From Methanomassiliicoccus sp. (GTDB lineage Archaea; Thermoplasmatota; Thermoplasmata; Methanomassiliicoccales; Methanomassiliicoccaceae): a stretch of DNA of 64,000 nucleotides. Positions 18,871 to 31,083 of this stretch are shown in pieces (position 1 is the first letter of the stretch; each line of letters starts with the position of its first letter). Below the pieces are notes generated by a model that was given only the letters and a program-made list of their open reading frames with translations, ran no database searches and was not told where the DNA came from. The stretch is from positions 124,001 through 188,000 of the forward strand of contig JADFDJ010000001.1 in the NCBI GenBank assembly GCA_018262895.1, read 5' to 3'. Made by a program: the position numbers and the translations under genes.

Positions 18871-19917
18871 TTGAACACTTTGGTAATCCTCTTGGACGGG
18901 GCGGCGGATGACAAGATCCCAGAACTGGGTGGCCTCACCCCTCTGGAGAGCTTCGACAAGAGGTTCATCGACGGCATCGCCACCAGCGGTGACTTCGGAT
19001 GCACGGACGGTAAGGGTTATACTCATCTATTCCTCCTGGAGTTCTTCTCCGGTAAGCCGCTCAACGTCCCCCGCGGTCTGATAGAGGCGGTCGGACTAGG
19101 GGTGCCGGTGGAGCCTCATCAGGTCGCCTACCGGTTCTCCCCCATCCACATGAAGGGGGATGGCATCGAGTGGGCCTATAGGGTCTCAAGGGAGATGCAT
19201 GAGAGCCTTCAGAAGGCGATGATCAGCAACCTCGACCTGCTGACCGACCTCAACCCCCGCCTGTACTTCTACGAGGATGGCCGGGGAGTGATGACCTTGG
19301 ACACCGATCATGTGCAGGCCTTCCCCAGTCCGCCGGCGCCTGTCGTAGGGAACGGTGTCAAGCTGGGCGAGTTCGAGGCCTTCATAAACCGTACCGCCAA
19401 GGACCTGGACGGCCTCACGGTGATGCCCTGGGGAGGCGGCTCCATGCTTGACGGGGGAGGTTCCAAGCCTTTGCCTCCGGCCAAGGACATGGTGGTCGTG
19501 TCGCAGTCCCCCTCGGCCCTGGGGGTGGCAGGCGTCCTCAACATGCGCCGCAGGGTCGTGGACAACATGTGGAGCGGCTTCCAGGAATCGTTCCGCCTGC
19601 TGAAGACGTCCAACGTGTTCATGCACGTGGAGGAGACGGACGATATATCCCACCGCCGCGCCCCGGACCAGAAGGTCTCGCTTCTCAAGGAGGTCGACGA
19701 CATCCTGTTGGAGAACGTGGAGCGCATGATGGGGCACAGGGTGGCCTTCGTCATCGATCACGGCACATCCTCCGTAACTGGCCAGCACATCCTCATGAAG
19801 ACGCCTTACGCTGCCGGGGTGGTGACCGTGCCTGACCGCCGGACCGTCCGCTTCTGCGAGAAGACGGACAAGTATCAGCCCCTTAATAGGCTGCTCTGCT
19901 CTCTCGTCGGCAAGTAG
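18871..19917 (+). CDS. ApgM-like alkaline-phosphatase-superfamily protein, nucleophile site altered
   Basis: 348 aa, related to archaeal cofactor-independent phosphoglycerate mutase. Conserved: metal-binding Asp in VILLDGAAD, IPELGGLTPLE, a VAYRF segment, HVEETDDISH, and the VIDHGTSS metal site near the C-terminus. Where ApgM proteins have GSDxAHL carrying the phosphorylated Ser, this protein has GKGYTHL, so the nucleophile is replaced. It is also shorter than the usual 400 aa. A TTG start is chosen because GGAG lies 7 bases before it. Probably not a working mutase; function unknown. Confidence 0.75.
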   Translation: MNTLVILLDGAADDKIPELGGLTPLESFDKRFIDGIATSGDFGCTDGKGYTHLFLLEFFSGKPLNVPRGLIEAVGLGVPVEPHQVAYRFSPIHMKGDGIEWAYRVSREMHESLQKAMISNLDLLTDLNPRLYFYEDGRGVMTLDTDHVQAFPSPPAPVVGNGVKLGEFEAFINRTAKDLDGLTVMPWGGGSMLDGGGSKPLPPAKDMVVVSQSPSALGVAGVLNMRRRVVDNMWSGFQESFRLLKTSNVFMHVEETDDISHRRAPDQKVSLLKEVDDILLENVERMMGHRVAFVIDHGTSSVTGQHILMKTPYAAGVVTVPDRRTVRFCEKTDKYQPLNRLLCSLVGK

Positions 19918-19952
19918 CCTAACGACATCGTTTAATAGGTCCTATTCCTTCG

Positions 19953-19971
19953 GTTGGATGTATTGTCCAGC
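19953..19971 (+). promoter_or_regulatory. Putative cobamide-regulon operator before cobT
   Basis: GTTGGATGTATTGTCCAGC, an imperfect 19-bp palindrome, matches 14 of 19 positions of the perfect palindrome before btuF. It lies 28 bases after a TATA-like TTTAATAG (19931-19938), at the expected transcription start, and 22 bases before the cobT ATG. Confidence 0.55.
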
Positions 19972-19993
19972 ATGTAGTTGATGAGGTGAGCTG

Positions 19994-21100
19994 ATGTCGT
20001 TCAAGGTGCCAGAGGATATCGCCATAGGCTTGGAAGAGGAGTTGGGCAGGAAGTTCCTGGAGCGCATATGGGGCAAGTCGCCTACGTATACCTGCGTGAT
20101 CGGCAACACTGAGACCGCGAAGATCCCCGGCCTGTCGGCCGCAGGAGCCAACCCCGAGGCCTGTGACTTCACCCCTGCCGCGGACATGGAGCTTCTGTTC
20201 TTTGGCAAGTGCAAATGCATGGACGGTGTGCCGGTAACTCCCGACGGGATCCCCACCCCCGGAATAGTGACCATGTCTGCCATCAAGCTAACGTCCATGC
20301 CCATCTTCGTCGTCAACGGCGGATTGAAGGTTCGCCCGCATGTCCCCTTCTTCGATGTGGACGGGTCACCTGGGGAAGATATCAGGACCGGCCGTGCGGT
20401 CAAGGACCCCGAGAAGTGCTTTGACCGCGCCGTGCTCGCCGGTAGGAACCTCGCCAAGATCAGCGACTATCTTGTGGTGGCCGAGTCCATACCTGGTGGC
20501 ACCACCACCGCCCTGGGCGTCCTCACCGCCTTAGGCTATGATGCCACGGGGAAGGTCTCCAGCACCCTTCCGGCCAACCCCCACTCACTGAAGAACCAGA
20601 TCGTGCAGGAGGGTCTGAAGGCCAACGGAGTGGGTAAGGATGGGTTCAGGAACGACCCCATGGCCGCCATCGAGGCGGTGGGCGATCCTATGATGGCGCC
20701 CGCGGCCGGCCTGGTAGCGGGGGCGGCTGAGTCGGTCCCCGTCATCATGGCTGGAGGAACCCAGATGGCTGCTGTCCTGGCCGTAGTCAAGGGCATGGAC
20801 AGCTCCGCCCTCAAGAACGTGGCCCTGGGGACCACGAGGTGGATCATGAAGGACAACACCTCCGACCTGAGGGACCTGGTCTCCCAGATAGGAAAGGTGC
20901 CTATCCTGTCCGCCAACCTCAACTTCTCAACCTCCAGGTACGACGGCCTGAAGATCTACGAGACAGGGCTGGTCAAGGAGGGAGTGGGAGCCGGTGGCTC
21001 CACCATCGCAGCCATTGCCCAGAGCGAGGGCAGGATCACCGCCCGTACCATGCTCGATGAGATCGAGAAGAACTACGCGAGGCTGGTCTCCCGACGCTGA
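19994..21100 (+). CDS. cobT: Archaeal CobT-type nicotinate-nucleotide phosphoribosyltransferase
   Basis: 368 aa of the archaeal CobT family (UPF0284 type). It activates the lower-ligand base as alpha-ribazole phosphate, starting nucleotide-loop assembly. Gly-rich IPGGTTTALGVLTALGY, MAGGTQMAAVLAV and the C-terminal GVGAGGSTIAA are family marks. A GAGGTGA ribosome-binding site lies 4-5 bases before the ATG. It is transcribed away from the btu/cob operon but shares an operator-like palindrome with it. Confidence 0.9.
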   Translation: MSFKVPEDIAIGLEEELGRKFLERIWGKSPTYTCVIGNTETAKIPGLSAAGANPEACDFTPAADMELLFFGKCKCMDGVPVTPDGIPTPGIVTMSAIKLTSMPIFVVNGGLKVRPHVPFFDVDGSPGEDIRTGRAVKDPEKCFDRAVLAGRNLAKISDYLVVAESIPGGTTTALGVLTALGYDATGKVSSTLPANPHSLKNQIVQEGLKANGVGKDGFRNDPMAAIEAVGDPMMAPAAGLVAGAAESVPVIMAGGTQMAAVLAVVKGMDSSALKNVALGTTRWIMKDNTSDLRDLVSQIGKVPILSANLNFSTSRYDGLKIYETGLVKEGVGAGGSTIAAIAQSEGRITARTMLDEIEKNYARLVSRR

Positions 21101-21182
21101 GGCCGTGGAACCTCTTTTCCTGCCCTGCCGAAGCGATGGCGGAACTCTTTATGTCCTAGATGGCCGATTGTAAAGGACCGCG

Positions 21183-22223
21183 ATGATGTCCTCACCTCTT
21201 GGGCGATACGAGGAGATGCTTCACGGCTCCTTGCCCGCCCGGTACTTGCTGGCCCGGTCCGTCAAGGTCGAGCTCCAGGAAGACCTGCCGCTCCCAGAGA
21301 GATGGAAGCTCCACGACCGGATGATGGAGCACCTGAGGGAGGCCATCGGCCGCAGGGATGCGCCCCGGATCGTCAGGCCCAACCTTTTGGACCTCAAGGT
21401 GTCGATCGCGAGGGACGTGATCCGGGAATGCAGCCTATGCGAGCATCGGTGCGGAACGGACCGCTACCACTCCCATGGACGATGCGGTGTTACTGAGAGC
21501 CGCATATCCAGCCAGTTCGTGCACATGGGGGAGGAGGAGTCACTGGTCCCATCCTACACCGTGTTCTTCTCAGGGTGCAACCTGAAGTGCGTCTTCTGCC
21601 AGAACTATGACATAAGCACCTGTCCGGACGCCGGCCGCAGCATTCCCATCAATGAGATGGCACGGCAGCTGAGCAGGCTGGCGAGTCATATCGGGGCTGA
21701 ACCCCGCTTCCGCGCCGCAGGAGATATTAGGAACGTCAACTGGGTGGGAGGGGACCCCACGCCCCACCTCCCCTACGTCTTGGAGGTCCTCTCGCGTTCC
21801 GATGCCAACATCGCCCAGGTGTGGAACTCCAACATGTACCTGACGGAGCACGCCATGTCGCTGCTGGACGGCTGCGTTGACATCTACCTCACGGACCTGA
21901 AGTTCGGCAACGACGCCTGCGCTCTAAGGCTATCAGGTGCCCCGTCCTACATGCGGACCGTCACACGTAACCATCTGATGGCATCTGGCCAGGGTGAGGT
22001 CATCGTCCGTCATCTCATGCTACCCGGCCACCTTCACTGCTGCACCCTGCCGGTGGTGGAATGGCTCGCCGAGAATATGCCGGGTGCTGCCGTCAACATT
22101 ATGGCCCAGTACCGTCCCGCACATCATGCGTGGATGTTTCCGGAACTTCGGGACGTGGTTTCCCTAGGGGAGCATAGAAAGGTGCTGGAGATCGCCAGGA
22201 GGAAAGGGCTTGCCCTTATCTGA
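21183..22223 (+). CDS. PflX/PflA-like radical SAM protein
   Basis: 346 aa. The radical SAM motif CNLKCVFC sits near residue 140 in FFSGCNLKCVFCQNYDIS; upstream is a second Cys cluster CSLCEHRC...GRCG, seen in the PflX-like subgroup. These resemble glycyl-radical-activating enzymes, but the group is largely uncharacterised. A CTTTATG element and two tandem ATGs (21183, 21186) precede the gene. It ends overlapping the convergent cobY by 8 bases. No operator palindrome is present, so it may be unrelated to cobamide synthesis. Confidence 0.85.
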   Translation: MMSSPLGRYEEMLHGSLPARYLLARSVKVELQEDLPLPERWKLHDRMMEHLREAIGRRDAPRIVRPNLLDLKVSIARDVIRECSLCEHRCGTDRYHSHGRCGVTESRISSQFVHMGEEESLVPSYTVFFSGCNLKCVFCQNYDISTCPDAGRSIPINEMARQLSRLASHIGAEPRFRAAGDIRNVNWVGGDPTPHLPYVLEVLSRSDANIAQVWNSNMYLTEHAMSLLDGCVDIYLTDLKFGNDACALRLSGAPSYMRTVTRNHLMASGQGEVIVRHLMLPGHLHCCTLPVVEWLAENMPGAAVNIMAQYRPAHHAWMFPELRDVVSLGEHRKVLEIARRKGLALI

Positions 22224-22851
22224 ACGGACCCGTCAGGTCTCGATAGGCTGACCGATGGGAGAGCATCATCTCCGCCCGCCGCAGGTCACCGATGGTGTTG
22301 ACGTTGAGGGCCAGCTCCTCCGATTCCGAGATCATGTAGGCCTGCTCCAGCTCCAGCCCGGTGAGCATGGCCTTGCGGTCCACGACCGAGACCCCGCAAA
22401 GTACCACCTCGCGACCGTTCACCATCAGCGAGTATGTCAGGTCAAGGCCCAGGGCCCTCATCATCTCCACGGGCACGGTGACGCAGAATGAGCCGACCTT
22501 CACTCCTTCTGCCTGCCGCAGCACGTCCTCAATGGTCCCTGGACGTATCAAGGGCATGTCCGCAGGCAGCACCATCACGTGGTCCGTGGTCAGTCCTGAC
22601 ATCACCTGGTTGAGGTCCTCGCTGTACCCTTTGCCGTCAGTGATGATGACATCTATCCCTCTCTCACGGAGATGCTTCTCCGTCCGGGGGGTATTCGAGG
22701 TGATGGAGACGTGGACCGCTCCCACCCCCCTCGAGGCCATGACCGCCTCCAGCACCCTGTCTATCATCGGCTGGCCAAGGACTGGAATGAGGGGCTTCTC
22801 CCCCTCCACCTCCTTCATCCTGCTGCCCTTCCCCCCCGCGGTCACGATCAC
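22216..22851 (-). CDS. cobY: Adenosylcobinamide-phosphate guanylyltransferase
   Basis: 211-aa nucleotidyltransferase, the archaeal non-orthologous replacement of bacterial CobU. It forms adenosylcobinamide-GDP. The GTP-binding start is MIVTAGGKGSRMKEVEGEKPL, in spaced motif GGKGSRM...EKPL; VLPADMPLI is the metal-binding region. Its ATG overlaps the cobS stop by 4 bases. Last gene of the btu/cob operon. Confidence 0.92.
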   Translation of the reverse strand: MIVTAGGKGSRMKEVEGEKPLIPVLGQPMIDRVLEAVMASRGVGAVHVSITSNTPRTEKHLRERGIDVIITDGKGYSEDLNQVMSGLTTDHVMVLPADMPLIRPGTIEDVLRQAEGVKVGSFCVTVPVEMMRALGLDLTYSLMVNGREVVLCGVSVVDRKAMLTGLELEQAYMISESEELALNVNTIGDLRRAEMMLSHRSAYRDLTGPFR

Positions 22852-23588
22852 ATCGACAGGAACAGCATCACCCCCAGCATCGCCATGATGAGGACCGCGG
22901 GCTTGGCCAGCTCGTTGGTGGCGCCCATTATGTCACCGTTCACACATCCGAAGCTGCCGTGCGCCTTCGCCGCCACCAACGCTCCGGTGACAATGCTGGC
23001 GAGGACCATCGATGCGATCAGGGCCACGGAGTAAAGACCTATCCAGGGGTACAGGACAGGGATGAACAGGGAGAGCAGGAGGAAAGACAGGCCTGCGGAA
23101 AGAGCGGCGTCACCCTTACGGCAGTTGCGCACGAACGGGCTCCCCAGCCCCTCCCGGGACGTTCCCAGGGCGGCAACTGTGACCAGGGCGTTCTTGCCCA
23201 GTACCTCCATGGCCAGAGGCAGGAAGAATATCGCGTGGTCCCCCTCCCGGCCGACGGAAGAGAGGGATACGATGATGAGCATCGTGAACAGGATGCCGAA
23301 GCCCACGCCCCCGGCCCCCACCCTCGTGTCCTTCATGGCCGCCAGCTTCTTCTCGTGCGGCCCCGTGGCTATCAGCCCGTCCCCAAGATCGATGAGCCCG
23401 TCGAAATGCAGGAACCTGTTCAGGCCGTGCATCACCAGGATCACCAGGGTCGCCGACACCAGGCTGTCGAGGACGCGGGTCAGGAGCAGGAACAGACCCC
23501 CGGCGATCACGCCGTAGAACAGTCCGATTATGGGGGTGAGCCAGAAGTGGTGCGACAGTTGGTCCACGTCCTCCATATCGACGTTCAC
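22848..23588 (-). CDS. cobS: Adenosylcobinamide-GDP ribazoletransferase (cobamide synthase)
   Basis: Integral membrane enzyme (about 6 hydrophobic segments) joining adenosylcobinamide-GDP to alpha-ribazole (phosphate). Signature FDGLIDLGDGLIA and the later RVGAGGVG and GxxNGDIMGA segments match. The coordinates use the first canonical start, GTG 23588, but the conserved N-terminus (AQFSLFTVIP) lies upstream; the frame is open to 23648 and offers only ATT 23642 and ATC 23624. ATT 23642 has a TGAGGA site just before it, so the protein probably begins there, overlapping cbiS. Confidence 0.9.
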   Translation of the reverse strand: MNVDMEDVDQLSHHFWLTPIIGLFYGVIAGGLFLLLTRVLDSLVSATLVILVMHGLNRFLHFDGLIDLGDGLIATGPHEKKLAAMKDTRVGAGGVGFGILFTMLIIVSLSSVGREGDHAIFFLPLAMEVLGKNALVTVAALGTSREGLGSPFVRNCRKGDAALSAGLSFLLLSLFIPVLYPWIGLYSVALIASMVLASIVTGALVAAKAHGSFGCVNGDIMGATNELAKPAVLIMAMLGVMLFLSM

Positions 23589-23629
23589 GGGAATGACCGT
23601 GAACAGAGAGAACTGCGCTTTGATGGCGC

Positions 23630-24772
23630 CTAGGAACCTAATTTGTCCTCACTCTCCAGGAGCTCGGTGTAGATCCTGGACATGATGGACCCTATGAGCG
23701 AGGCGACTATATCGTCAAGGAACGGGCCCAGGGTCCCGAGGATCCCCGGCTTCTTCTTGTCATAGCGTATGTACTCGAAGAGACCTTTGGTGCCGGCGAT
23801 GTACTGCGCGAGGGCTATCCCCAGGAGCTCGTCCGCAACCAGGTGCACCGGGTCCTCGCGGAACCGTCCCTGGTCCAGCCCGTACAGGTCGTCCCGGTTG
23901 CCCTTTTCCTCCATGGCGAAGGCCGCGTTCATGATAGCGTTGACGTTGATGTCCTTCCGCAGGACGGAGAGGTGCCTGAGGAACATCTGCTTAAGGGCCT
24001 CGGTGTCCCATGTAGGGTCTGGGACGTAAAGGGCCAGGGCCGCCTCCCACATCTCCTCCGGTCCAATGCCCAGCTCGTCCAGGCGGTACCCGAAGTCCCT
24101 GGGTCCGCCGTTCTTGTTCCACTTGCGGACGGAATCGGCGACCGCCTCTCTCACCGTGCGTGCCATGACCATCCCGGCATCGGTGGCCGGCCCGCAGTAC
24201 ATGTCCCCCTCCCCCAGGGGACAGGCCACGGCCACGGCGTCGCTGGTGGTCCCCGTGCCCTTGACGTTCATGTCCATGAGGGCCGCGCTCTTGGCCTCGG
24301 TCACGGTGATGAACGCGCCCGCGAGGCCTCCGCACTCAATGGGGGAGTCCAGAAGGGCGATGATGTTGATGGTCCCGGCCACGTGCTTGGGCAGAAGATC
24401 GATGATCTCCTGGGGAAGCCTCTCCCCGGCATAGACGGCGTTGGTCACTCCAGCGGTGACGATGGCTATGACCTTCTTGCCGTTGAGCTCGTCCCTCTTG
24501 ACGGTCAGGACGCGCTTGACATCGGCGGCGGTCATGAAGCCCACGCTGTCGCTCGGAAGGCCGTACTTGGTGCATACGTTCAAGAGGTCCTCCTCTGGAT
24601 GGTTGTTGTCGTAGCCCATCTTGACCTCGAGGATGAAGATTGTGTCCGTCTCCGCGAAGCCTCCGCCCATGAGGGTGGAGCTGAGCACCTTGAACCTTGC
24701 CGGCAGATGAACTATGGCCACGGGTCTGTCCTGGTATTCGCCCATCTCTATCCTTACATCGAACTCCGACAT
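23630..24772 (-). CDS. cbiS: Bifunctional adenosylcobinamide amidohydrolase / alpha-ribazole phosphatase
   Basis: 380-aa fusion. The N-terminal part (1 to about 220) is CbiZ-like: VLSSTLMGGGF, VTAGVTNAVYAG, GAFITVTEAKSAAL. It hydrolyses imported adenosylcobinamide to adenosylcobyric acid. The C-terminal part (about 225-380) is CobZ-like (PgpA-type helical phosphatase: DDIVASLIGSIMSRIYTE). The same fusion is known as CbiS in Methanopyrus kandleri. Together they cover corrinoid salvage and the last dephosphorylation. Central gene of the operon. Confidence 0.9.
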   Translation of the reverse strand: MSEFDVRIEMGEYQDRPVAIVHLPARFKVLSSTLMGGGFAETDTIFILEVKMGYDNNHPEEDLLNVCTKYGLPSDSVGFMTAADVKRVLTVKRDELNGKKVIAIVTAGVTNAVYAGERLPQEIIDLLPKHVAGTINIIALLDSPIECGGLAGAFITVTEAKSAALMDMNVKGTGTTSDAVAVACPLGEGDMYCGPATDAGMVMARTVREAVADSVRKWNKNGGPRDFGYRLDELGIGPEEMWEAALALYVPDPTWDTEALKQMFLRHLSVLRKDINVNAIMNAAFAMEEKGNRDDLYGLDQGRFREDPVHLVADELLGIALAQYIAGTKGLFEYIRYDKKKPGILGTLGPFLDDIVASLIGSIMSRIYTELLESEDKLGS

Positions 24773-24781
24773 GTTTGCACC

Positions 24782-25786
24782 TCACCTCAGGCCCAGCAAA
24801 CCCAGGAGGACATCCTCCAGGTACAGCTGGACATGTATACCTATGAATGTGAAAAGAGGAAGTAGGAACACGACGAAGAAGAGGACCGCCGTCAGCTTCA
24901 TCACCCTAATGGTGTCCCTTATGACCAGGGGATCGCTCGAAACCTCCCCGTCCCCCATGTTGTAGTACCCCGTCTTCTCGAACCTCACGCGGAGGCCGCC
25001 GGCCACCGCGGCCATTGGCCATCCCTTGTTGGGGCTGCTGGTCTGACGGCGATCGCGCAGGGCGGTACGCCAGGCATTGCGCCAGTCCTTCCTCAGCATC
25101 GCTAGTGAGAGCATGATGAAGGGGACGGAGAGGCGGGCCACCAGGAAGTGCGCGCAATCGTCGAGGCGAGCGGTGAACCAGCCTACGTACCGATGCTTTT
25201 CGTTGAGATAGCCTATCATGCCGTCCCCGGTGTTGGTGACCCTGAGGAACGTCGCCCCGGGGATCCCGGTCAGGCCGAAGTATAACATGGGCGATAGGAC
25301 GGAGTCCACGAGGTTCTCGGACACCGTCTCCGCTGCGCAGGATATGACGTGGGCGCGATCGAGCTTGTTCACATCCCGCGACACCACCATGGACACCTTC
25401 TTGCGCGCGGCGTCCAGATCGTCCCTCTTGAGGTCGTCCACCATGGGCGCCGTGTGGGTCTCCAGCGCCCTGATGGCAAAGAGCGTCTTGAATATCATTG
25501 CGCAGGCGGCGGCCCAGACCAACATTCCCAGCCACAACCGCATCAAGGCCAGAAGGATGGTGAAACCGAGCACGAAGACGATAATGGGCATCAGGATCAC
25601 GAGAACGCCCAGCGCCTTCTCCTTTCGTGTTCGGCGAGGTTCCTCCCTGGGGACCATGCCGTCCAGCGCCCCTATCAGCTTCCCCATCCACACCACGGGG
25701 TGGACACGGTTGGGGGGCTCTCCCAGCGCCAGATCGATGACCAGCGCCACTAGGGGAATGATTATAGCGTACAGCCAGAGGTCCAC
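24782..25786 (-). CDS. cbiB: Adenosylcobinamide-phosphate synthase
   Basis: 334-aa membrane protein that attaches the aminopropanol(-phosphate) arm to adenosylcobyric acid. The start DLALGEPPNRVHPVVWMG is diagnostic, as are AAETVSENLVDSVLSP and SPNKGWPMAAVAGGL. Several hydrophobic helices span residues 5-25, 55-100, 200-220 and 295-315. It uses the product of CbiS (upstream reaction) and of CobD (next gene). Confidence 0.94.
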   Translation of the reverse strand: MDLWLYAIIIPLVALVIDLALGEPPNRVHPVVWMGKLIGALDGMVPREEPRRTRKEKALGVLVILMPIIVFVLGFTILLALMRLWLGMLVWAAACAMIFKTLFAIRALETHTAPMVDDLKRDDLDAARKKVSMVVSRDVNKLDRAHVISCAAETVSENLVDSVLSPMLYFGLTGIPGATFLRVTNTGDGMIGYLNEKHRYVGWFTARLDDCAHFLVARLSVPFIMLSLAMLRKDWRNAWRTALRDRRQTSSPNKGWPMAAVAGGLRVRFEKTGYYNMGDGEVSSDPLVIRDTIRVMKLTAVLFFVVFLLPLFTFIGIHVQLYLEDVLLGLLGLR

Positions 25787-25790
25787 ACGA

Positions 25791-26918
25791 CTACCTTCCT
25801 GAATGCAATTCCTCTACCGTGGCCTTCATCGCCTCCAGGAACTCGTCGTCGCTCTCCCTGGTCTTCACGCAGAAGCGCGAGTACGATTGGCCGGGAGGGC
25901 CGAAGGAGGAGCAGTCTCGGACCAGGACGTTGTGGTTGAGCATCATATCCTTGAACTTCGGGGAGGTGACCCCCAGAGACCTCAGCGGATGGAAGAAGAA
26001 GTAGGAATCCGGAAGAGGGATCCTGCGCTTGAGGATGTGCGAGATACCATCGCGCATCCTCTGCTTCTCATCCAGCAGGAGGCGGACGGCGCTGCGCACA
26101 TGCTCCTGCTCGTTGATCATGAGCTTGGTCGCCACCCTTTGCTCGATCGTTCCCAGGTTCCAGGACAGGCGGGCAGCGTCCATGTAGCGGACGACGTCCT
26201 TGCTCCCGAAGCCGTAGCCTACCCGAAGTCCGGGCATGGCGAACGACTTCGTAAAGGACCTGATGATGAACATGTTGTCGTTGGCGGCCACCTCTCCCAC
26301 GCAGGTGACGTCCCTCTCCCTCTCGGATAGTTCCAGGAGGGTCTCGTCGAGGAACACCATGATGTCCCGTCGCGCTGCCTCCTTGACGACCTCCATCACC
26401 TCCTTGCGGGTGAGCATCCGTGCGGTGGGGTTGTTGGGGTTGCACACGTAGATCGCCTTTGTGCCAGGGGACATGGCATCGATTAACGTAGAGATTTCAG
26501 GATAAAATCCATCGTCCTCCGGCAGGGGAACGTCCATGAACTTGGCGCCCATGAGCTGGCATGCGAAACCGTACTCAGAGAACGTAGGGCGGGGCATGAT
26601 GACCTTGTCGCCTGGCCTTACGAACACCTCGGGGAACAGTCTGATAAGCTCGGCCGAACCCGCGCCGACAACGATGTTCGCTGCAGGGAGGCCGTACCTC
26701 TGGGAGATCGCCTCCTTCAGTTCCTTGCAGCGATCGTCGGGGTAGTTGATCATGTCCCGGGCCGCTTCAACGATGTACTCGTTCAAGCGCTCGGGAGGTC
26801 CCAGGGGATTGACGTTGGAGCTGAAGTCCTTGACCTCCAGACGGCCCCAGACATCCCCTCCGTGCTTTGGCCGGAGCATGCCTAGAACCTCCGTACGTAC
26901 CCGATCCTCCAGGCTCAT
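25791..26918 (-). CDS. cobD: Threonine-phosphate decarboxylase
   Basis: 375-aa PLP enzyme of the HisC-like group giving aminopropanol phosphate for the cobamide side chain. FSSNVNPLGPP near the start, VCNPNNPT, FLDETLLEL and the PLP lysine in SFTKSFAMPGLRVGYGFG are present. The N-terminal HGGD within PKHGGDVWG is typical of CobD rather than HisC. Its location between cbiB and btuD and the presence of a separate hisC support CobD. Confidence 0.9.
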   Translation of the reverse strand: MSLEDRVRTEVLGMLRPKHGGDVWGRLEVKDFSSNVNPLGPPERLNEYIVEAARDMINYPDDRCKELKEAISQRYGLPAANIVVGAGSAELIRLFPEVFVRPGDKVIMPRPTFSEYGFACQLMGAKFMDVPLPEDDGFYPEISTLIDAMSPGTKAIYVCNPNNPTARMLTRKEVMEVVKEAARRDIMVFLDETLLELSERERDVTCVGEVAANDNMFIIRSFTKSFAMPGLRVGYGFGSKDVVRYMDAARLSWNLGTIEQRVATKLMINEQEHVRSAVRLLLDEKQRMRDGISHILKRRIPLPDSYFFFHPLRSLGVTSPKFKDMMLNHNVLVRDCSSFGPPGQSYSRFCVKTRESDDEFLEAMKATVEELHSGR

Positions 26919-27721
26919 TTTCCATCCTCCTTCCGGCGGGTCCTGCGGGGTATGGCATAGATGTCATCCCCATCCTTGATTATGACCACCTCCACGCCGT
27001 AGACCTGCTCCACCATCTGGGAGGTGATGACGTCCTCGGGCTTCCCAAAGGCCACGATCTTGCCCTTGGAGAGTATCATCACCTTATCGCAGTACTTGGC
27101 CAGGAGGTTGAGGTCGTGGGAGGCTATGACGATGGTGACGTTCCCGCTCAGCATGTCCCGAAGGTGCTCCATTATCTCCAGCTTGTACTTGAGATCGAGG
27201 TGCGCCGAAGGCTCGTCCACCAGCATGACCCTGGGACACTGCACCACGGCCTTGGCGAGGAGCACCCTCTGGGCCTCACCGGACGATAGCTCGGAGAACT
27301 TACGGTCCTTCAGGTGATAGACCCCGAACTTCTCCATGGCCTCTATGACCATGCCTTCGTCCTCCCTATTGTCCCACCACAGTCCCTTTGCGAACGGGTA
27401 CCGACCCAGGAACACCAGTTCCTGCACTGACATGTTGAAGTCCTCGCTGAACTCCGTGGGGACGTTGGCGCAGACCTTGGCGATCTCCTCGATCTTCATC
27501 TTGGTGAGGTCCTTTCCCTCCATCATGATGGTCCCCACCTTTGGGCGAAGGATGCCGTTGATAAGACGGAGCAGTGTGCTCTTTCCGGAACCATTGGGGC
27601 CGATCAGGCCAATGAACTCGCCCCTGTTCCCTTCGAACTCCACCCCTCTCAGCACCTCGGTGCCGTTGTAGCCGAACTGGACACCTTCGATCTTGATCGA
27701 CACCTGTGGATCATCCGCCAT
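26915..27721 (-). CDS. btuD: Corrinoid ABC transporter, ATP-binding protein
   Basis: 268-aa ATPase of the iron/B12 importer type. Walker A GPNGSGKST, Q-loop region, signature LSSGEAQRV, Walker B VMLVDEPSAHLD and the switch His in IASHDLN are complete. Overlaps cobD by 4 bases and btuC by 11. The family also includes siderophore/haem importers; the cob genes on the same transcript point to corrinoids. Confidence 0.92.
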   Translation of the reverse strand: MADDPQVSIKIEGVQFGYNGTEVLRGVEFEGNRGEFIGLIGPNGSGKSTLLRLINGILRPKVGTIMMEGKDLTKMKIEEIAKVCANVPTEFSEDFNMSVQELVFLGRYPFAKGLWWDNREDEGMVIEAMEKFGVYHLKDRKFSELSSGEAQRVLLAKAVVQCPRVMLVDEPSAHLDLKYKLEIMEHLRDMLSGNVTIVIASHDLNLLAKYCDKVMILSKGKIVAFGKPEDVITSQMVEQVYGVEVVIIKDGDDIYAIPRRTRRKEDGK

Positions 27722-28757
27722 ATTCTTTCCCCCTCCTGATCATAAGGTATACGAAGAACGGTGCGCCGATCAGAGATATTACCGCCCCGATGGGGAGCTC
27801 GTTGGGCCGTACCGCCAGGCGGGAGAACAGGTCCGCAGCTAGGAGCACGTTGGCGCCAAGCACCATGGACGTAGGTATGAGAAGCCGGTGATCTCCACCG
27901 ACAAGCATGCGGGAGGTATGGGGCACGATCAACCCTAGGAAGCCAATGATTCCAGAGAATGCCACCGAGATGGCCGTTAGCACAGAGACCAACAGGATGG
28001 TCATGCGCTTGAACATCCTCACATCCAACCCTAGGTGCTTGGCGTGCTCATCCCCCAAGAGGATTACGTTGAACTCCCGTGCATACAGCATGAACATCAC
28101 GGCCAGTATCAGGATGGGGATGATTATTATGAGGGCCTTGGTCCAGGACATGTAGGCGAACGAGCCGTACAGCCAGAACAGTGCCCCGTGCAGCCGGTTG
28201 TCATCGCTGGAAACGATGAGGACTGTGGTTATGGAGGATATGGCGATACCGATGATCATGCCGCTGAGGACAAAGTTGATCGATCTTCCACCCGCCGACT
28301 CCGCCAAGGTGAGAGTTATGAAGAACGCCATCAAGGCCCCCAGAAGAGCCGCCACAGGTGTGGTGTACTCCGCCAGAGAGACGATGGATATTCCCGCTAG
28401 AATGGATAATATCGCACCCAGGGCGGCACCGGAGGACACACCGGTGATGTAGGGGTCCACCAGGGGGTTGCGTATAAGAGCCTGCATGACCACTCCGGAC
28501 ACGGAAAGGCCGATGCCCACTCCCACGACGGCCACGCTGCGGACCATCCTTGACCACACGATCTGCTGCTCAGCATCACCGCTCATGGGTCCGAAGTTCG
28601 TGATGATATAGGACATGCTGTCGATGACCTTCGAAATATCGATGTCGACCGCACCCATTGACCAGGAGAGAACTAAAAGGAAGAAAAGGGACAGAAGGCC
28701 GATGACCAGCACTAACACTAGCTTTGCTTTAGACTTCTGGACGATCGAACCTTCCAT
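27711..28757 (-). CDS. btuC: Corrinoid ABC transporter, permease
   Basis: 348 aa, about ten hydrophobic helices of the FecCD/BtuC family. GVVMQALIRNPLVDPYITGVSSGAALGA contains in short pieces the family's conserved NPLxxPxxLGxxxGA region; the cytoplasmic coupling segment and the terminal IGAVISLIGAPFFVYLM are typical. Forms a dimer in the cytoplasmic membrane with BtuD and receives ligand from BtuF. Confidence 0.92.
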   Translation of the reverse strand: MEGSIVQKSKAKLVLVLVIGLLSLFFLLVLSWSMGAVDIDISKVIDSMSYIITNFGPMSGDAEQQIVWSRMVRSVAVVGVGIGLSVSGVVMQALIRNPLVDPYITGVSSGAALGAILSILAGISIVSLAEYTTPVAALLGALMAFFITLTLAESAGGRSINFVLSGMIIGIAISSITTVLIVSSDDNRLHGALFWLYGSFAYMSWTKALIIIIPILILAVMFMLYAREFNVILLGDEHAKHLGLDVRMFKRMTILLVSVLTAISVAFSGIIGFLGLIVPHTSRMLVGGDHRLLIPTSMVLGANVLLAADLFSRLAVRPNELPIGAVISLIGAPFFVYLMIRRGKEYGG

Positions 28758-28775
28758 TGTTTTTACCCCGGTGCC

Positions 28776-29876
28776 TTACTCGCGCCAACTCGCCACCAAG
28801 ACGGCGGGGGTGAACTGGGACGCGGTCCCGGAGGGGAGGTAGTCCGCATAGTCATCACCGATGATGTTCACACCATCGGCAGAGTGGGGCACCTCGCCGC
28901 TGAAGGCATCCGGATGTAGTATCTCCGCCAACAGCTGGACCGCATCGACCGTCCTCACCGACTCTCGGTTGAAGATGTTCTCGCTTTCCCCGGTCAAGAA
29001 GTATATGTTATTATTCTTTACCGCAGGGCTCTCCTTCCAGAGGGAGTCGCTCTTGAACCAAGCGCTGGTGTTCTCTGGGCTTTCAGGCGAGTACATGATG
29101 GTCATGATGATGTAGTCCACGGAGGATGCCTTGCTCTTCAGGACCTCATCCGAGGCCATCTCGAAGCCGTTCATTTCAGCGAACACGTTGATACCCCCAG
29201 CCAGATCGATGATCTCGCCGATGGCCGTCCCTCCGCCCGCCGGCCATACATTGGTGAATCCCGCCTCCGCATAGGTAACAAACATGATGGATGGCTCGTC
29301 ATCACCACTAATGGCCTCACCGATAGAGGATATCTTGGACTGCATGTCATCGACCATCTCGCTCGCCTTGGACTCCAGGCCCACGAGCTTTCCGATCATG
29401 TTGATGTTGTCGTAGACCATGGATATGTTGGTGGCGGCGTTCACCACTAGCACCGTGTATCCCGCAGAGCGGAGCTGGGTGGCCATATCTATCTGTGTCT
29501 GGACGCTGTTGCTCACGATGACCAGGTCAGGGTTGTAGGAGATGACCTTCTCGTAGCTTGGCGTGTAGAAACCGCCTATGGTCTTGCCAGCGTCACGGAG
29601 GTCTTTGACCCCTTGAGGATAGTCGCAGTAGTCCGTGACCGCCACCAGCTTATCTGTAAGGTCCAAGGCCGCCACGACCTCGGATATGTCCGGTGCGCAG
29701 GACACTATCCTGCTGGGAGAAGCGCTCAAAGTCACGTTCATGCCCGAGGCATCGGTGACGGTGGCCGCTTGCGACCCTGCGTTCTTGTTCTGACTCAATG
29801 CTACCACTGCCACGATGGCCACGACCAGCACGGCCACCAAAGCGATGGCGATCATCTTCCTATTTCCTGACCCCAT
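28776..29876 (-). CDS. btuF: Corrinoid-binding extracellular protein
   Basis: About 366 aa, helical-backbone substrate-binding protein. An N-terminal hydrophobic anchor (IAIALVAVLVVAIVAVVAL) after a short basic stretch suggests membrane tethering; no lipobox Cys is present. Typical segments are PSRIVSCAPDISEVVAAL and YNPDLVIVSNS. The ATG at 29876 is chosen because GAGGGTGATC, nearly the full anti-16S sequence, precedes it; the frame extends to 29921, across the operator. First gene of the eight-gene operon. Confidence 0.88.
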   Translation of the reverse strand: MGSGNRKMIAIALVAVLVVAIVAVVALSQNKNAGSQAATVTDASGMNVTLSASPSRIVSCAPDISEVVAALDLTDKLVAVTDYCDYPQGVKDLRDAGKTIGGFYTPSYEKVISYNPDLVIVSNSVQTQIDMATQLRSAGYTVLVVNAATNISMVYDNINMIGKLVGLESKASEMVDDMQSKISSIGEAISGDDEPSIMFVTYAEAGFTNVWPAGGGTAIGEIIDLAGGINVFAEMNGFEMASDEVLKSKASSVDYIIMTIMYSPESPENTSAWFKSDSLWKESPAVKNNNIYFLTGESENIFNRESVRTVDAVQLLAEILHPDAFSGEVPHSADGVNIIGDDYADYLPSGTASQFTPAVLVASWRE

Positions 29877-29907
29877 ATGATCACCCTCAAATGATGCTAC
29901 TTCTAAA

Positions 29908-29926
29908 GTTGGATGATTCATCCAAC
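29908..29926 (-). promoter_or_regulatory. Perfect palindromic operator of the btu/cob operon
   Basis: GTTGGATGATTCATCCAAC is a perfect 9+1+9 inverted repeat. On the minus strand it lies about 33 bases (centre to centre) downstream of a TATA-like CTTATATG (29947-29954), covering the expected transcription start, the classical place for an archaeal repressor. Confidence 0.65.
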
Positions 29927-29946
29927 AGTGTCTAGATAATGGTCGG

Positions 29947-29954
29947 CATATAAG
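29947..29954 (-). promoter_or_regulatory. TATA box of the btu/cob operon
   Basis: CTTATATG on the minus strand, the best TATA match in the 30016-29877 gap. It is flanked downstream by the palindrome and upstream by a separate half-site. Confidence 0.5.
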
Positions 29955-29966
29955 GTCTTTCCTAGG

Positions 29967-29977
29967 GTTGGATGTAT
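29967..29977 (+). promoter_or_regulatory. Operator half-site upstream of the btu promoter
   Basis: GTTGGATGTAT, identical over 11 bases to the left part of the cobT site. It lies just upstream of the btu TATA box, so the promoter is bracketed by two copies of the motif. Confidence 0.45.
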
Positions 29978-30015
29978 CGACGTTCTAAGAATGAAAAACA
30001 GGGGTCGAAAGGGGT

Positions 30016-31083
30016 TTAGATGTCCAGGTGGCGGACCCAACCGAAGGGGTCTGGCCTCTCGCCGACCTGGATGCCAGTTATCTCGTCAAAGAGCCTCTGA
30101 GCCAGGGGACCGGTCTTGTTATCGTTTATGGTGACCGTCTCCCCCTTGTGGAACAGCTCTCCGACCGGAGATATTACGGCGGCCGTTCCCGTTCCGAATA
30201 TCTCGGTCATGCTGCCGTCCTTGATCGAGGCCATGACCTCATCGATGCTGATCCTCCTCTCCTCGACCTTGATGCCCCAGTGCCGGGCGAGCTGCAGTAC
30301 GCTGTCCCTGGTGACGCCGGCGAGGATCGTGCCCTCGAGGGGCGGGGTTATGAGGGTCCCGTCCTTGTAGAAGCATATGTTCATTGTCCCCACCTCATCG
30401 ATGTACTTCTCATGGACCCCATCGAGCCACAGCACCTGCGAGTACCCCTTCTTCTTGGCCTCGTGGGCAGGCAGCAGGGAGGCGGCATAGTTGGCCGCGG
30501 TCTTGGCCTCGCCCAGCCCTCCGCGGACGGCTCGGACGAACTCGCCGGAGGTCATCAGGCTGACAGGGTTGAACCCTTCCTTGTAGTACGCGCCCACCGG
30601 CCCGGTGATGATGAAGAAGGTGTACTTCTCCGAGACCCGGACGCCGATGTAGTCCTCGGTGGCGAAGGTGAAGGGACGGATGTACAGGGAGGTACCCTTC
30701 TTTTTGGGTATCCACTGCTCATCTAGTGTGACCAAGGCCTCCACCGCCCCCACGAAAAGGTCCTTCTCGACGCGGGGGATGCATAGCCGGTCAGAGGAGT
30801 GCAGCATCCTCTCAGCATGCTTGTCCGGGCGGAAGATGTTGACCCCTCCCTTACGGTCGCGGAAGGCCTTCAGGCCCTCGAAGACGCTCTGTCCATAGTG
30901 AAGTGCGGACAAGGATGGCAGGATCTCGATCTTTCCGAAGGGTACGATTTTCGGTACCTGCCACTCATCGTTGGCATAGTCCATCTGGAACATGTGGTCG
31001 GAGAACGTCTCTCCGAAGGTCAGATGGTCGAAATCAACCTCACCGATCCTGCTGTTTACGACCTTGTGCGTTTCAAATCTCAA
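30016..31083 (-). CDS. ilvE: Branched-chain amino acid aminotransferase
   Basis: 355 aa, fold-type IV PLP enzyme of the longer BCAT group: HMFQMDY, LHYGQSVFEGLKAFR, the PLP lysine K194 in GEAKTAANYAASL, VLWLDG and EVGTMN. Final step of Leu, Ile and Val synthesis. An in-frame TAA directly precedes the TTG at 31083, so TTG is the furthest possible start. A TATA-like TTATATT (minus strand, about 31119-31125) fits. Confidence 0.93.
   Translation of the reverse strand: MRFETHKVVNSRIGEVDFDHLTFGETFSDHMFQMDYANDEWQVPKIVPFGKIEILPSLSALHYGQSVFEGLKAFRDRKGGVNIFRPDKHAERMLHSSDRLCIPRVEKDLFVGAVEALVTLDEQWIPKKKGTSLYIRPFTFATEDYIGVRVSEKYTFFIITGPVGAYYKEGFNPVSLMTSGEFVRAVRGGLGEAKTAANYAASLLPAHEAKKKGYSQVLWLDGVHEKYIDEVGTMNICFYKDGTLITPPLEGTILAGVTRDSVLQLARHWGIKVEERRISIDEVMASIKDGSMTEIFGTGTAAVISPVGELFHKGETVTINDNKTGPLAQRLFDEITGIQVGERPDPFGWVRHLDI

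Follow-up and report, generated by a model that had tools for sequence, protein, structure and literature searches.

A palindromic operator at the cobT and btuF promoters of Methanomassiliicoccales indicates a cobamide regulon with a DUF4443 protein as candidate repressor

In 2003 Rodionov et al. reportedly predicted a palindromic B12 box (the CBL-box) in other archaea, leaving its regulator unassigned, and to our knowledge every archaeal B12 regulon still lacks an assigned regulator. The 64,000-nucleotide stretch of Methanomassiliicoccus sp. DNA analyzed here (the window, from contig JADFDJ010000001.1) contains a 19-bp palindromic operator ahead of the btuF operon and a related copy ahead of cobT. 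The arrangement resembles the CBL-box/CblR type of control, in which a hypothetical regulatory protein would bind a palindrome ahead of archaeal cobalamin genes, here genes of both cobalamin synthesis and uptake. The differences from the CBL-box as reported are the occurrence in Methanomassiliicoccales with a variant in Asgard archaea, the larger set of targets and a named regulator candidate, a protein of the DUF4443 family. Bacterial cobalamin riboswitch regulons share the btu, cob/cbi and cobalt transport targets but differ in that here a DNA operator lies over the transcription start and no RNA element is found. The original prediction termed the operator undescribed, which holds for the regulon in Methanomassiliicoccales, its reach into Asgard archaea and the regulator candidate, and has to be qualified in that the CBL-box was predicted earlier in other archaea. 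A cobalamin regulon has likewise been predicted in Pyrococcus furiosus with its regulator given as "unknown" (PMC10746257).

The operator of the btuF operon is a perfect 9-1-9 palindrome of 19 bp (GTTGGATGATTCATCCAAC, 29908-29926, no strand assigned) placed at -50 to -32 from the btuF ATG (29876) and covering the predicted transcription start. The operator of cobT (GTTGGATGTATTGTCCAGC, 19953-19971, no strand assigned) begins 41 bp ahead of the cobT ATG (19994) and is a degenerate copy, identical to the btuF palindrome at 14 of 19 positions, with near-perfect palindromes occupying the equivalent cobT position in other species. TATA-box-like elements are located at 29945-29953 on the minus strand for btuF (CTTATATG) and at 19931-19938 on the plus strand for cobT (TTTAATAG). 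A half-site with a putative role (GTTGGATGTAT, 29967-29977, plus strand) precedes the btuF TATA box, and its 40-bp spacing is constant in two congeners (G001 and G003), both close relatives. These three elements were the basis of the original prediction and all are confirmed from the sequence; the similar placement of the btuF and cobT copies relative to the TATA box, also claimed there, is part of an operator-over-start geometry common to 33 cobT/btuF promoters. A profile built from 105 sites of the order gives 33.5 bits at 29908-29926, 13.1 bits at 19953-19971 and values below 0 at all other window positions.

The operator consensus is RTTGGAT-D-WWW-H-ATCCAAY. A search of the 2.34-Mb source genome (G000) with TTGGATN5ATCCAA, the N5 center being unspecified and up to one mismatch allowed, gives 21 sites compared with 0 for the reversed control pattern. 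The center is A or T at positions 9, 10 and 11 in 101, 103 and 99 of the 105 sites of the order (~96%), part of this set having been collected with a partly specified center. The operator is present in 40 of 41 genomes of Methanomassiliicoccales with control patterns near zero, and the strict pattern applied to 395 Thermoplasmatota genomes finds it in the majority of Methanomassiliicoccales genomes, with up to 13 sites each, and only sporadically elsewhere. Strict matches outside the order with the sequence GTTGGATTGCTAATCCAAT were read by inspection as the tRNA-Ser(GCT) anticodon arm and excluded from the counts. In an independent genome scan for CobT, a site lies 31-66 bp ahead of cobT in all loci securely of the order and scores lowest at L143 (9.8 bits) and in this window; the cobT loci of other groups checked in that scan have no comparable site by profile. 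L169 and L173, two loci whose titles go no further than Thermoplasmatales or Thermoplasmata, have no cobT site by profile, and their DUF4443 proteins resemble those of family f2. In the refutation test set out with the original prediction, the motif proves to be conserved ahead of orthologous cobT and btuF genes rather than scattered over random intergenic sites. A related palindrome, TAGGATAAATTATCCTA, is found ahead of cobT in one Odinarchaeota metagenome-assembled genome and in two Jordarchaeia; the sole other near-perfect copy in the Odinarchaeota genome lies ahead of a btuF-FecCD operon, and in one Jordarchaeon a related palindrome is placed between divergent btuF and cobT, so the btuF/cobT pairing of the window recurs in another phylum.

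In the 33 cobT/btuF promoters an A/T-rich TATA segment lies ~17-28 bp ahead of the operator, and an archaeal start ~25 bp after the TATA box would fall at or within the operator, the place expected of a repressor. Several promoters have a pair of sites separated in most cases by 29-35 or 67-73 bp, a spacing that suggests helical phasing. Rfam gives no match in window positions 19000-31000 at E values up to 1 and none in ten target loci at the gathering threshold. A protein repressor had been put forward as the natural reading of the palindromes, and the operator position over the start site together with the lack of an Rfam riboswitch supports it.

The target genes, read from the stretches around the sites, define the regulon. 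In the source genome the window sites precede the btuFCD-cobD-cbiB-cbiS-cobS-cobY operon and cobT, and the other targets are CbiQ-type and CbiM cobalt transporters, a divergent hem/CbiX-CfbE (F430) cluster, a cbi methyltransferase operon, an ATP:corrinoid adenosyltransferase, a second BtuF-FecCD operon, and extracellular β-propeller, DUF4430 and fasciclin proteins. Across the order the regulon also includes energy-coupling factor (ECF) transporters alongside β-propeller/DUF4430 genes. The same target families are found again in relatives, where the site adjoins the start codon of the orthologous genes, together with CobN, CobB/CbiA and the adenosylcobalamin-dependent ribonucleotide reductase NrdJ, which lies behind an operator in two family f2 genomes (L082:1045-3477 and L100:1248-3476). 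A scan of related genomes, as proposed with the original prediction, places sites ahead of cobamide, cobalt and corrinoid-uptake genes, and on this comparative evidence the operator and a cobamide regulon are almost certainly real.

The candidate for the regulator is a 194-amino acid winged-helix DUF4443 protein encoded outside the window (G000:C29:93209-93793, minus strand). The original prediction noted no obvious regulator gene nearby; this strong candidate is present, but elsewhere in the genome. Of 41 genomes of the order 40 encode DUF4443, the exception being a 67% complete genome, and every near-complete genome of the order has it (63/63), compared with 12/187 of the remaining Thermoplasmatota. 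Outside the order the strict box is present in 8/12 DUF4443-positive and 5/175 DUF4443-negative genomes (Fisher p ~2e-8), a hand tally without the tRNA look-alikes in a test that ignores phylogeny; the phylum-wide table for the same test used 64/75, and a recount of ~63/75 leaves the conclusion unchanged. DUF4443-negative genomes with a box match (G289 and G352) have the site distant from corrinoid genes. In at least twelve genomes an operator immediately follows the DUF4443 gene on its 3' side, both in the order (G017, G022, G025, G028, G031 and G040) and in other families (G056, G285, G298, G316, G329 and G388), with the downstream gene lacking a clear identification in G017 and G298. In single-box genomes the box tends to sit just 3' of DUF4443, usually leading a propeller/DUF4430/ECF operon, and lone boxes elsewhere precede a propeller gene (G281 and G045), DUF4430-DUF6580 (G280, G319 and G356) or btuF (G332 and G148).

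The DUF4443 protein combines PF14544 with an N-terminal winged helix; the source-genome copy matches PF14544 at 7e-33 and the G040 orthologue at 4e-32, with PF22167 and PF21715 also over cut-off in the latter. The AlphaFold2 model (pLDDT, the predicted local distance difference test score, of 88) has the winged helix followed by a C-terminal domain resembling part of aspartyl-tRNA synthetase, and the best PDB match is 2P8T (sequence E 5e-16; Foldseek E 2.8e-11), placing the candidate in the PH0730-like/DUF4443 family by both sequence and fold. In most members the gene follows that for S-adenosylmethionine (SAM) synthetase, a neighborhood that may point to an adenosyl-type cue. One family f2 genome (G029) has an unusually expanded set of eight DUF4443 matches, and the 96 genomes of the Methanobrevibacter phylum have none. 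A literature search found no paper on DUF4443, and the function of the family is not described in the papers searched. From its co-distribution with the box and its gene adjacency, DUF4443 is probably the reader of the operator.

The full explanation preferred here, with a probability of about 0.8, is that the operators belong to a genome-wide cobamide regulon read by a DUF4443 repressor. A dimeric winged-helix DUF4443 protein (PH0730-like) would bind the 19-bp palindrome over the transcription start and, when intracellular cobamide or a related cue is sufficient, block the recruitment or escape of RNA polymerase; possible related cues are adenosylcobalamin and cobalt. With the cue scarce, the repressor would be released and cobalt uptake, corrin synthesis, nucleotide-loop assembly and corrinoid scavenging would be turned on together. 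Several points weigh against this explanation. NrdJ and some other targets misfit simple repression by B12, and the DUF4443 gene of the source genome adjoins no operator, with no autoregulation seen. The genomes with the adjacency are not independent because synteny is conserved. Most members encode an additional DUF4443 protein of greater length, which is the sole copy in G020. DUF4443 is also present in Nitrososphaeria and Bathyarchaeota without this box ahead of cobT, and in the Odinarchaeota assembly (1.2 Mb) the related box is present and DUF4443 was not detected. All of the support is comparative sequence evidence.

The identity of the effector separates the preferred explanation from one rival, which overlaps it in this respect and has the same operator bound by a metal-binding repressor that senses cobalt rather than cobamide. 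CbiM, CbiQ, CbiX and CobN among the targets would fit such a sensor, but BtuFCD, ECF-propeller uptake, CobT and the adenosyltransferase are targets as well, several genomes have a propeller/DUF4430/ECF operon or btuFCD as their sole target, and the DUF4443 alignment has no evident metal-binding motif. Cobalt sensing is unlikely, though not negligibly so, and cobamide is favored as the effector with modest confidence. Slightly less likely is a real regulon under another regulator, whether a different winged-helix factor, an XRE-CBS protein or an Lrp-type factor, with DUF4443 being only an old neighbor. DUF4443 binding is a prediction, families f3, f4 and f6 have an XRE-CBS gene divergent from that for SAM synthetase, and in G027 a double Lrp-type helix-turn-helix protein next to a propeller gene shares an operator-bearing promoter region; yet DUF4443 presence follows box presence across the phylum. 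The XRE-CBS protein was rejected, as outside the order it is encoded away from the operator and in the source genome away from the DUF4443 gene, and the Lrp-type factor was rejected with no close homologue conserved beside other sites.

The Fur boxes of Fur-family regulators are 19 bp in length. The first candidate taken up was a cobalt-responsive Fur-family metalloregulator that would bind the palindrome, since in one genus the operator is found at a Fur gene, and the two systems are alike in palindromic operator length and in targets for metal or cofactor uptake. Fur-family genes adjoin the operator near CbiA/CobB or CbiM in G001, G008, G012 and G013 (observed at L128:3494-3949, L124, L130 and G001:C3:22564), where Fur is possibly a second-layer cobalt regulator. 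As the general regulator Fur is very improbable and was rejected, since it is missing from many motif-bearing genomes: PF01475 has no match in the source genome or in G003, G015, G017, G020 and G037, all near-complete and all with operators, so that only a highly divergent Fur overlooked by the profile could rescue this reading. Next to excluded by the comparative data is a reading of the palindromes as chance occurrences, as a hairpin or riboswitch in transcribed RNA, or as repeats with no link to B12, for although the 11-mer is unremarkable in the window alone (5 matches compared with 3.8 expected) and a tRNA-Ser anticodon arm seems to mimic the pattern in other genomes, the genome-wide excess over the control, the orthologous placement in many genomes, the position over the start site and the lack of an Rfam match all oppose it.

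The genes of the two window loci are assigned as follows. On the plus strand cobT, the archaeal nicotinate-nucleotide phosphoribosyltransferase (19994-21100, TIGR00303 9e-119), has its nearest CobT in the genome scan in Methanomassiliicoccus sp. MXMAG1 (82% identity) and is followed by a radical SAM protein gene (21183-22223, plus strand, PF04055) that may be co-transcribed with it. The opposing operon, all on the minus strand, begins with a btuF-like corrinoid-binding protein (28776-29876, PF01497) and continues with the btuC permease (FecCD, 27711-28757), the btuD ATPase (26915-27721), a cobD-like threonine-phosphate decarboxylase/aminotransferase (25791-26918, TIGR01140 under cut-off) and the cbiB adenosylcobinamide-phosphate synthase (24782-25786, TIGR00380). 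A cbiS-like fusion of CbiZ amidohydrolase and CobZ phosphatase (23630-24772; PF01955, with NF038002 and TIGR03161 both just under cut-off), cobS (22848-23588, TIGR00317) and a cobY-like guanylyltransferase (22216-22851; TIGR00454 and NF045495, both under cut-off) complete it.

Further genes are found behind operators in other genomes. Propellers with a signal peptide, a DUF4430-like N-terminal part and a C-terminal anchor form one operator-led operon with DUF4430 lipoproteins and ECF genes (EcfT of CbiQ type), as at L280:1359-6613, L356, L353 and L354; this may be the archaeal counterpart of B12 capture outside the cell. The propeller fold matches are generic (BamB/PQQ-type), so corrinoid binding by the propeller stays putative, and a PDB search with one DUF4430 protein gave no match. 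A peptide of 31-35 amino acids (MSVVMCRMECKVDGNGLSHYIIYD..GELPF) lies directly after the operator and ahead of a CbpB-type radical SAM maturase (L067:3607-3702, L107:3384-3491, L114:3379-3474 and L129:3566-3661). It has a weak match, below cut-off, to CbpA (TIGR04164), a precursor of the ribosomally synthesized and post-translationally modified peptide class, and would be a modified peptide of the B12 regulon, perhaps one that binds cobalt or a corrinoid. A conserved pair of a zinc alcohol dehydrogenase and a TrpD-like phosphoribosyltransferase (L047:5809-7981) lies behind two operators 72 bp apart and perhaps handles the lower ligand; the dehydrogenase is found behind operators in several genomes. 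A 186-amino acid protein (L051:5124-5684) with no Pfam or NCBIfam match has an operator ~60-70 bp upstream in three genomes.

Methanogenesis by Methanomassiliicoccales in guts and wetlands depends on corrinoid methyltransferases, and B12 transport features prominently in these archaea (PMC10804542). There is an even chance that DUF4443 represents a new class of cobamide-sensing repressor, unrelated to known B12-binding domains, that would control corrinoid supply in several archaeal phyla, and that the regulon contains an unrecognized corrinoid capture system of membrane-anchored β-propellers, transcobalamin-like DUF4430 proteins and ECF transporters. The combination of a regulator candidate, a precise operator and a target list gives function predictions for DUF4443, DUF4430, DUF6580 and the propeller proteins.
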